Positions 8,673 through 12,326 of a stretch of 64,000 bases of DNA are shown piece by piece. The position numbers and the translations under genes were made by a program. The notes beneath the pieces were generated by a model that saw nothing but the letters and a program-made list of their open reading frames with translations, made no database searches and was not told the origin of the DNA. The stretch covers positions 186,001 to 250,000 of the forward strand of contig NZ_CP081958.1 in NCBI RefSeq assembly GCF_019823105.1, read 5' to 3'. Position 1 is the stretch's first letter, and every line of letters starts with the position of its first letter. This stretch comes from Halobaculum magnesiiphilum (lineage in GTDB: Archaea; Halobacteriota; Halobacteria; Halobacteriales; Haloferacaceae).

Positions 8673-10079
8673 TCATTCGGTCCCGTTCACACGGACGGTG
8701 ACTGCGCCGTCCGTGCCGGATGCCGTGGCGCGCCTCACGAACCGCTCGTCCCCGAGCAGCAGCACGACCGTCCCCGGCGCGGCGCGAACGAGCCGCACCG
8801 TCGACGCGTTCGCCGGACGGTCCGCCCGCCACGTCTCGAACGCCGCCGCGAACGCCGTCGCGTTGGAGGCGTCCTCAAATCGGATCGCCCACGCGTAGCC
8901 GGTGTGTGTCGACCCGTCGTCGGCGTGCGCGACGAACCGCCGTCGCACGTCGTTGTCCCAGCCGTGTGCGGCATCGGCCGCCGTCGGCTCGTCGACGCTC
9001 GTTTCCAACAGCGTGCGGACGAACAGCTCCCCGTAGGTGTCCCTCGCCCGTCCGTCGCTGGTCCACCCGTCCCCCGGCGCATCGCGAACGGCCAGCGCCG
9101 CGAGCGGCTCGCTCCCGGGCGGGCGGTCGTGGAGCAACTCCTCGGCCGTGCGGGGCGGATCGGCGTACACCACGCGAACCTCGCCGGGATCGGACACGCG
9201 CGCGTCGACGTAGCGCGCGCCGGCGAGATACGGCGCGGTCCCGAGGCGCGTCGCCGGCGAGCCGTTCGCCGCTCGCGCGCGCAGCGGCTCTGTCGGCGTC
9301 GGTGCCTCCGGCGCGTACCTGCGGACGTACTCCCCCTGCACGTACGTCGCCGACCCCTCGACGATCGCCGCCCGGAGCAGCCGCGAGGCAGTCGATCCCG
9401 TCGGCGTCGCCGCAGTTCCCTCAAGGTTCTCGAACGCGCCCGTCCGGAACTGGACGACGTGAACCGACTCGTGGGCCAGCGTCGACTCCGCGCCCGCGGC
9501 GTCCGCGAGGACCGCCTCGTTGACGACGACCGCCTCCGGCGACGCGACGTACGCCGCCGCGGTGAGCGCGCGCCCGCGCTCGGCACCCACCCGGAAGCCG
9601 AGCAGCCGGTAGAACTTCGGATACGCGCTCCCGCCAAACTCCATCGACTCGTTCGGCTCGATGCGGACGACCGACGGCGGTTCGACCGTCGGCCGGTCCA
9701 CCGTCACCGCGACCCGGGCGAACACCAGCGGGTACTCGACCGGCAGCGACCCGCCCGACACGCGAACGTCGTACCCGTCCGCGAGCGCCCGGGGCGACGG
9801 CGAGGCAGTTTCCGACGTGTTCGCGGCCGTACCGTCCGCGCCCGGCGACGACTGCGGCGACGGCTGCGGCGACTCTGCCGGCGGCTGCGCCGACTGTGGC
9901 GACTGTGCCGACGGCGTCGACGGTGACACCGTGGATATCGTGGCATCCGGCGATCCCCCGCTCGTCGTGTGGCGGTCCGAGACGGCGGGGTCGCCCTCGG
10001 TCGTCGCCGGGGGGACCGCGGGGGCCGCACAGCCGCCGATGACGAGGAGGGCTGCGAGGAGGAGGGCACGGATCGACAC
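8673..10079 (-). CDS. Secreted lipoprotein with HExxH motif (Hvo_1808-like surface protein)
   Basis: 468 residues. The N-terminus MSIRALLLAALLVIGGC is a lipoprotein signal peptide with lipobox IGGC. A Ser/Pro/Gln-rich linker (about 20-100) precedes the folded domain. LAHESVHVVQF (about residues 204-214) is a perfect HExxH, the zinc-protease signature, with a downstream acidic stretch that could supply a third ligand. The architecture and length recall the haloarchaeal Hvo_1808 family of surface proteins (from memory). Protease activity is inferred only. It is probably anchored on the outer face of the membrane. Confidence 0.75.
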   Translation of the reverse strand: MSIRALLLAALLVIGGCAAPAVPPATTEGDPAVSDRHTTSGGSPDATISTVSPSTPSAQSPQSAQPPAESPQPSPQSSPGADGTAANTSETASPSPRALADGYDVRVSGGSLPVEYPLVFARVAVTVDRPTVEPPSVVRIEPNESMEFGGSAYPKFYRLLGFRVGAERGRALTAAAYVASPEAVVVNEAVLADAAGAESTLAHESVHVVQFRTGAFENLEGTAATPTGSTASRLLRAAIVEGSATYVQGEYVRRYAPEAPTPTEPLRARAANGSPATRLGTAPYLAGARYVDARVSDPGEVRVVYADPPRTAEELLHDRPPGSEPLAALAVRDAPGDGWTSDGRARDTYGELFVRTLLETSVDEPTAADAAHGWDNDVRRRFVAHADDGSTHTGYAWAIRFEDASNATAFAAAFETWRADRPANASTVRLVRAAPGTVVLLLGDERFVRRATASGTDGAVTVRVNGTE

Positions 10080-10172: not shown

Positions 10173-12326
10173 TCAGTCCAGTTCGCGCTCGATGACCGAC
10201 CGGAGGTCGCGGATCGACCCGGCGTCGCGCGTCAGTTCCGAGTCGCCGACCGAAAGCGAGAGCGTCCCGTCCGCGGTCGCCTCGCCGATCTCCTCGACCG
10301 GCGCGACGCCGTCGAATGCTGCCCGGACCGCGTCCGGGTCGGCCGTCTCGATCACCGCGCGACCGGGGCTCTCGTCGAACAGCGCGAGCGCGTCGTCGAG
10401 CGCGACTTCGGCGCCGGCGTCGTCGGTCACCATCTCCGCGAGCGCGACCGCGAGTCCCCCGTGACTCACGTCGTGCACCGCGAGGGTGTCGTCGCCGTCG
10501 GCGACCGCCGCGAGCGTCTCCACGACCGCCGGCGCGTTCTCCGGAAGGGCGGGGAAGCGGTCGCTCCCGCCCGCCTGCGCGAGATACTCCGAGCCGCCCA
10601 GCGCGCCGCCGGCGGCGCCGACCGCGAGCACGCTCCCCTCGCCGGCGAACGCCGCCGGGGGCGCGTCGAAGCCCGCCTTCGTCCCGATGACCGCCAGCGT
10701 CGGCGTCGGCGGGATGGGGCCGGCGACCGAGTCGTTGTACAGCGAGACGTTGCCGCCGACGACAGGCATCGAGAGGTCCGCGCACATCTCGGCGAGGCCG
10801 TCGACGGCGGCCGCGAAGCCGCCGTACACGTCCGGCTTCTCCGGGTTGCCGCCGTTGAGGCAGTCGACCGCCGCGAGGGGGGTCGCGCCCTTCGCCGCGA
10901 GGTTCGTCGCGTTCTCCAGCGCGACTGCGCGGGCGCCCTCGTACGGCGCCGCCTCCGTCCACCGCGGCTCGGAGCCGGAGGACAGCGCCAGCCCGACCGG
11001 GTCGCCGCCGTCGGTTTCGGCCTCGCGGATAGCCATCACCGCGGCGTCGTCGCCGGGGAGCACCGAGGTCCGGACGCCGACCTCGTGGTCGTACTGGCGG
11101 TACACCCAGCGCTTGCTCGCGGTGTTCGGGTGGCCGACGACGGCGTCGAACGCCTCGCCGAGCGCGTCCGGATCGGGCTCCTCGTCCGCGACAAGTACGG
11201 GGAGGTCGCGCTCGGGCCGGCTCGGCCCCTCGCGGTCGAGGTCGTTCATCGGCGCGCCGTCGGCGAGGTACTCGGCGGGCGCGTCGACGACCGTCTCGCC
11301 CTCGAAGGTGCACACGTAGTTGCCGTCGGTCACCTCGCCGATGACCGAACAGCCCAGGTCGAACCGCTCGGCCAGCTCGGCGACGCGGTCGGTGTCCTCG
11401 GGCCGGACCTCGTACACCATGCGCTCCTGGCTCTCGGCCAGCAGGATCTCCATGGCGTTCATGTTCGGCTCGCGCTGGTGGACGCGGTCGAGGGCGATAT
11501 CGGCGCCGAGGCCGCCCTTGGCGACCAGCTCGGAGGACGCGCCCCCGAGCCCGGCCGCTCCCAGGTCGCGCGCGGCGACGAGCAGTCCCTCGTCGACGAG
11601 CGCCTCGTTGCACTCGATGAGTCGCTTCTCGGCGTACGGGTCACCGACCTGAACGGCGGGGCGGTCCTCCGTCTCGGCATCCTCCGCGAGGTCCTCCGAG
11701 GCGAAGGAGGCGCCACCGAGGCCGTCGCGGCCGGTAGCGTTGCCCACGAGCACAAGCGCGTTGCCGGGCGTCTCGGCCGTCGCCGTGACGAGCCGATCCG
11801 GCGTCGTCAGCCCGACGCAGGCGACGTTGACGAGCGGGTTCCCCTCGTACCCGTCGTTGAACGCGACGGAGCCGGCGACCGTGGGGACGCCGATGCAGTT
11901 GCCGTAGTGGCTGATCCCCTCGACGACGCCCTCGAACAGGTACCGCGAGTGCTCGCGGTCGAAGTCGCCGAAGTACAGCGAGTCTGCCAGCGCGATCGGG
12001 TACGCGCCCATCGACATCGTGTCGCGGACGATGCCGCCGACGCCCGTGGCGGCCCCGTCGAAGGGGTCGACGTACGAGGGGTGGTTGTGGCTCTCGATGC
12101 CGAGCGTGGCGTACGTGTCCTCGTCGAGCGCGACGACCGCGGCGTCGTCGCCGGGGCCGATCACGACGTCCTCGGACTCGCTCTCGAAGGCGCCCAACAG
12201 CGGGCGCGACGAGCGGTACGCGCAGTGCTCGCTCCAGAGGTTCTCGAACAGCGCGGCCTCGGCTCGGGTGGGCTCCCGTCCGAGTTCCGCCTCCACCAGT
12301 TCGCGGTCCGCGTCGGCGAGGGGCAT
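10173..12326 (-). CDS. purL: Phosphoribosylformylglycinamidine synthase subunit PurL
   Basis: 717 residues, typical of the small archaeal/Gram-positive PurL (about 700-740), which works with separate PurS and PurQ. The N-terminal part has [14 protein letters not shown]. Nucleotide and metal-binding motifs include [22 protein letters not shown] and [14 protein letters not shown]. It converts FGAR to FGAM with ATP and ammonia from PurQ in purine synthesis. purS and purQ are not in the window. It diverges from the PHP-domain gene. Confidence 0.97.

Follow-up and report, generated by a model that had tools for sequence, protein, structure and literature searches.

Halobaculum magnesiiphilum encodes a lipid-anchored protein of 468 residues that carries an HExxH motif, and the gene raises the question of whether this motif belongs to the active site of a metallopeptidase. 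The gene lies in a stretch of 64,000 nucleotides (contig NZ_CP081958.1, positions 186,001 to 250,000 of the forward strand), which is called the window below. The initial annotation of this DNA had described a beta-rich surface lipoprotein with a linker behind its lipid anchor, and had read its HExxH as a zinc-metalloprotease signature.

The lipoprotein and its gene

The HExxH motif, the lipoprotein signal and the linker are all present in the protein (Table 1). The reading frame has a stop at the fourth codon upstream of the GTG start, with no alternative start codon between the two. The signal peptide has no twin arginine, which suggests that export is of the Sec type. The residues S, P, T, Q, A, G, D or E make up 89% of the 56 residues that follow the lipobox. 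The linker is also rich in Gly, and the globular part begins after about residue 98. The Glu of the EGxA motif sits 38 residues past the first His of HExxH. The protein is not a metzincin, because the sequence HExxHxxGxxH is absent: the window protein reads HESVHVVQFRT in this region.

Table 1. The gene, its upstream neighbor and the features of the encoded protein, in window positions.
Feature	Position	Strand	Basis or remark
Whole gene, lipid-anchored predicted metallopeptidase, 468 aa	8673..10079	minus	GTG start
Lipoprotein signal peptide and lipobox VIGGC (Cys17)	10029..10079	minus	sequence; lipobox in purL-linked relatives
Low-complexity Ser/Pro/Thr/Gln/Ala linker, about aa 18-98	9786..10028	minus	sequence; similar in purL-linked relatives
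Predicted gluzincin-like catalytic domain, about aa 99-325	9105..9785	minus	model and VIA alignments
HESVH, aa 203-207; predicted two metal-ligand His and catalytic Glu	9459..9473 (contig 195459-195473)	minus	family conservation
EGSATY, aa 241-246; Glu241 is the predicted third metal ligand	9342..9359	minus	conservation; model helix 132-157
Tyr284 in PYxxG, near-invariant	9228..9230	minus	conservation; aligned with QYERG of Zincin_2
C-terminal alpha/beta part, about aa 328-468	8676..9098	minus	structure model
purL, preceding the gene	10173..12326	minus	named by sequence; gap of 93 bases

One search yielded ten loci at which purL adjoins a family gene (L009-L018, with L009 being the window itself), and purL is also adjacent at the named loci L039 and L040, which appear to represent the contigs of L011 and L013 again. 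The remaining loci of that search have no purL match within their flanks of about 1,500 bases each. The purL-linked orthologs in six other genomes of the genus have 53-94% identity. Among named proteins, the nearest relative found is one of Halobaculum saliterrae, whose best segment is 73% identical. All ten purL-linked proteins, including the window protein, have a lipobox that ends in GC and is followed by a low-complexity stretch. The clade to which the window protein belongs has 26 members; a lipobox is recognized by pattern in 21 of them and two more show TAGC by eye.

Relation to the Hvo_1808 surface proteins and conservation of the site

A Pfam scan of the window protein gave no family over its cut-off. 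The NCBIfam model NF038145, 'Hvo_1808 family surface protein', matches it with 84.7 bits (E 7.6e-24, best stretch residues 176-351), which is below the curated cut-off of 200 bits, and the protein is thus homologous to this family without being called a member. The HExxH, EGxA, PYxxG and GW...W columns are common to both. In the tree, however, the clade of the window protein is separate from Hvo_1808 proper. Judged by its sequence, the window protein is related to the Hvo_1808 surface proteins but has diverged from them.

That family is found over its cut-off in at least 144 of the 145 genomes of the haloarchaeal class that were searched. In the control genomes it occurs in Haloferax volcanii and, among the matches listed, in none of the other 13. 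As the initial annotation had remarked, the relatives are annotated without an enzymatic role: NF038145 carries none, and three of the four plasmid records matched by a relative are named 'Hvo_1808 family surface protein'. The fourth record, a 'hypothetical protein', is bacterial and comes from the Chloroflexota Candidatus Chlorohelix allophototropha. It contains HELTH and EGDA, and matches the family profile A2 with an hhalign probability of 99.7%. The Hvo_1808 protein of H. volcanii is described in the available text of PMC2945643 as mainly cell-associated and processed; the cysteine of its LAGC is dispensable for processing, and the mutant protein is less abundant. The word 'protease' is absent from the main text of that article.

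Two other loci of the family deserve mention. The window's own genome has two tandem Hvo_1808-type genes on contig 1 (1616000-1626000), both encoding HELVH; one product is a lipoprotein and the other has a PGF-CTERM-like tail (by eye and by pattern). The flanking reading frames resemble genes for a nicotinate phosphoribosyltransferase and a nicotinamidase. At L143:1033-2254, the sequence of a family member runs through two overlapping frames, and the match contains one TGA. This copy, from an incomplete genome (G042, 81%), is either decaying or the product of an assembly error.

Searches with other family models gave weak similarities. The flagellinolysin model NF033876 scores 18 bits against the window protein (E 0.0016), below its curated cut-off of 205 bits. 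Zincin_2 (PF10103, DUF2342; gathering cut-off 25 bits) does not appear among the Pfam matches of the window protein even with an E limit of 5, and is matched at E up to 0.1 by three of the 90 family members of alignment A1. The weak Pfam similarities of these 90 members (E up to 0.1) include several metallopeptidase families; DUF6782 is matched by 53 members, M78 by 21 and M76 by 14. In five relatives scanned singly, the sole Pfam match over its cut-off was the PGF-CTERM tail of one of them. A sequence search of the PDB gave a single, irrelevant low-complexity match for the window protein, and none for one of the Hvo_1808 relatives from the same genome or for the Chlorohelix protein.

Conservation was examined in relatives gathered by iterated profile search from the listed family loci and fetched stretches, which do not comprise every match, and then reduced and aligned. 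Sixteen of 180 distinct segments, namely 13 truncated copies and three fragments of fewer than 200 residues without the motif region, were removed to leave 164. The counts refer to the 163 rows that remain without the duplicate L009 and an unrelated recruit, L117:7712-8950 (plus strand). This recruit, wrongly drawn in by the profile search, is another haloarchaeal lipoprotein; its HELGHTLGLTH fits the metzincin-like pattern HExxHxxGxxH.

The initial annotation had proposed a check on the conservation of both His residues and the Glu of the motif. The Glu (Glu204) and the second His (His207) are invariant in all 163 distinct haloarchaeal relatives. At the position of the first His (His203), 134 relatives have His and the other 29 have Gln. 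The Glu (Glu241) and the Gly of EGxA likewise occur in every one of the 163. Tyr251 and Tyr284 are each conserved in 162 of 163; for Tyr284, the one exception is a gap. The exchange of the first ligand is unevenly distributed: Gln is found in one of the 26 members of the window protein's clade, the other 25 having His, versus 28 of the 137 relatives on the Hvo_1808 side, where 109 have His. The family-wide EGxA with its third-ligand candidate and the QExxH members are both additions to what had been noted earlier.

Predicted fold and relation to Zincin_2

A model of residues 99-468, built with an alignment of 90 relatives, has a mean pLDDT of 95.3 and a pTM of 0.92. Its motif-bearing part is mostly helical and is followed by the C-terminal alpha/beta part, so that 'beta-rich' alone does not describe the protein correctly. 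Gluzincins (clan MA(E)) bind their metal through HExxH plus a Glu. The structure prediction, from which a third ligand had been sought, offers the corresponding arrangement: the HESVH motif, conserved in the family, lies on one helix (model residues 96-114), and Glu241 is a candidate third ligand on a following helix (132-157). The predicted fold is also of the gluzincin class according to VIA-align, though Foldseek alone gave no significant match to the PDB (best E 0.26). No significant match to viral models was found with Foldseek.

VIA-align was used for a second look at the top chains of Foldseek. The best match is 3cmn, with a Z-score of 10.9 (203 aligned residues, 5.2 Å), followed by insulin-regulated aminopeptidase (Z 10.8, 167 residues, 3.5 Å) and LTA4 hydrolase (Z 10.3, 176 residues, 3.9 Å). 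M30 lugdulysin, an M61 peptidase and thermolysin (M4) have Z-scores of 8.2, 7.6 and 7.1, respectively. Gluzincin families thus take most of the top rows (Z 7.1-10.9), and scores of 7-11 are only moderately above the background of the tool, for which the best values are typically 7-8. The alignments span about residues 1-257 of the model, in which the catalytic domain occupies about 1-227. The M1 aminopeptidases, M30 lugdulysin, M61 and thermolysin align over this domain with Z 7.1-10.8. They differ from the window protein in sequence (7-18% identity), and the latter is a lipoprotein with a C-terminal part of its own. A model of a relative with Gln as first ligand (pLDDT 89.3) likewise matches 3cmn best (Z 10.5); clostridial collagenases follow, with scores of 6.7 or lower.

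The C-terminal part matches RseB weakly (Z 5.5), and that of the Gln-type model weakly matches the PknH sensor and TiME domains (Z 5.3-6.2). Protein-kinase lobes score similarly, all these values are under Z 8, and the matches are suggestive only. It is possible that this part of the modeled structure is a substrate- or partner-binding domain.

The structure 3cmn is a Zincin_2 protein, since a profile built from 20 haloarchaeal members of that family hits it at E 6e-61; it is also named as the structure matched by DUF2342 in the available text of PMC3650047. Besides providing the best structural match, Zincin_2 has HExxH, EGxA and Y..G in the same order as the window protein. It is nevertheless a separate family, present in at least 95 of the 97 haloarchaeal genomes searched, and the window protein is not called by its Pfam model. 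The family profile A1 matches 3cmn at E 0.0064, from the EGxA region onward, and the haloarchaeal Zincin_2 profile at E 3.8e-5 (probability 71%). In the latter alignment HExxH falls on HEVAH, EG on EG and PYxxG on QYxxG. Profile A2, which consists mostly of Hvo_1808 proper, matches Zincin_2 weakly (probability 1.5%, E 0.033). Because A1 supports the relationship but A2 does so weakly, a distant relationship of the Hvo_1808 group and the window protein to Zincin_2 is likely, but not proven. In the 20 aligned haloarchaeal copies of Zincin_2 the HExxH residues and EGYAE are invariant. A separate Zincin_2 protein, HVO_2770, is described as a zincin-like metalloprotease of clan MA in the available text of PMC6267482.

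Proposed function and the QExxH relatives

The motif, the third-ligand candidate, their conservation and the fold class of the model lead us to predict, with a probability of about 0.72, that the window protein acts outside the cell as a zinc peptidase of the gluzincin type, held by a lipid anchor. The early reading of HExxH as a zinc-metalloprotease signature thus gains support from the family and from the model. After export, Cys17 would be lipidated, as the signal and the lipobox suggest. The flexible linker would keep the catalytic domain at a distance from the membrane and give it reach. One metal ion would be bound by His203, His207 and Glu241, and Glu204 would activate a water molecule to attack a peptide bond in a protein of the envelope or outside the cell. 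Tyr284 is possibly a transition-state or substrate residue, and substrate selection may fall to the C-terminal alpha/beta part.

It is unlikely, in our judgment, that the gluzincin-like fold binds a metal for a purpose other than peptide hydrolysis, as another metal-dependent hydrolase, an HExxH oxygenase or a metal-dependent envelope binding protein would. VIA-align does list such proteins: YbeY endoribonucleases appear with Z 7.5 and 7.0, and a 2-oxoglutarate oxygenase appears through its HExxH domain (8s5f) with Z 5.3. In addition, all 29 relatives with Gln keep the other residues of the site, including the catalytic Glu, which would fit a metal site with looser demands. The best scores, however, go to Zincin_2 and M1 peptidases, and it is in gluzincin peptidases that HExxH is combined with a Glu from a later helix.

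The replacement of the first His bears on a second alternative, that of a structural or decoy pseudo-peptidase, in which the family would have given up catalysis and kept the fold for partner binding. In a FastTree tree of 165 rows (two of which were later dropped), five changes of the His/Gln label are required, and well-supported branches force three of these. The same numbers, five and three, come from a mixture-model tree of 125 rows; it was calculated without the motif columns and without L017 after thinning 140 rows at 85% identity, and has three rows only from the window protein's clade. These counts have no direction, so that three changes may represent one gain and two losses. A Gln-type gene is found in 21 of the 80 fetched regions, and 11 of these 21 also hold a His-type gene while ten do not. 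Both the repeated changes and the pairing of the two types would suit a decoy. The catalytic Glu, however, would be needless in a decoy and is retained without exception, and the window protein has the full site; we regard this alternative as very improbable. That HExxH arose by chance and has no function is hardly credible: about 0.6% of 100,000 shuffles of the window protein contain the motif (0.02% together with EGxA at a fitting distance), but its invariance across a highly diverged family, accompanied by the gluzincin fold match, is a far stronger argument for a real motif than the shuffle statistics.

The predicted gluzincin-type peptidase site has an unusual form in the relatives with QExxH. 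The only one in the window protein's clade, L017 (genome G018), is purL-linked, reads AQEAVH and stands away in the tree from the Gln members of Hvo_1808 proper. Because 29 of the 163 relatives lack the first His, this purL-linked one included, the group as a whole does not share classical zinc chemistry, as far as the sequences indicate. Three genomes (G038, G046 and G069) have, among the matches listed, a single family match each, which is of the Gln type, so that a Gln-type protein is not always the partner of a His-type one. All 28 main-clade Gln members have Glu at +22 from the first ligand, Asp at +39 and Phe or Tyr inside the motif, and 25 of them have His at +24; the corresponding numbers for the 109 His members are 7 (Glu at +22), 12 (Asp at +39) and 1 (His at +24).

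By analogy with the Volvox protein VMP3, we tentatively consider it possible, at odds well short of even, that the Gln members are active, with Gln replacing the first His as metal ligand and with another metal preference, such as for copper; the Hvo_1808 group would then be an overlooked, nearly universal envelope peptidase system of haloarchaea. If this reading were true, the residues common to the main-clade Gln members would represent a retuned site, but common descent could also explain them. We know of no other active gluzincin-type site of the kind QExxH...E, and such a site would be the first. The primary paper on VMP3 is reportedly that of Heitzer and Hallmann from 2002.

The available text of PMC7717551 describes VMP3 as naturally functional with QExxHxxGxxH and as favoring copper. 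It was the sole active QExxH protease found in the available texts of the open-licence literature on QExxH, where the label is also used for a dimetal halogenase. VMP3 is like the Gln relatives in having Gln for the first His and an otherwise intact motif. Its QExxHxxGxxH is of the metzincin kind, whereas the third ligand of the Gln relatives would be a Glu on a later helix. According to the available text of PMC3650047, substituted HExxH sites are common and non-random. Glu or Arg takes the place of the first His in such sites at about twice the rate of an average protein, and Gln is the most frequent substitute for His across proteins in general. This general preference weakens an argument from codons, in which Gln would be non-random as the outcome of two of the eight single-step non-synonymous changes from CAC, and the argument was given up.

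A review (PMC4343526, available text) calls the role of archaeal membrane proteases poorly understood. No peptidase prediction for the Hvo_1808 group was found in the available texts of the open-licence literature on haloarchaeal metalloproteases, Zincin_2, gluzincins and QExxH. A nearly universal family of haloarchaeal surface proteins, annotated without function, thus gains an overlooked and testable site of the predicted gluzincin type. Its natural QExxH paralogs furnish a set in which it can be asked whether Gln serves as a metal ligand and whether it shifts the metal preference.
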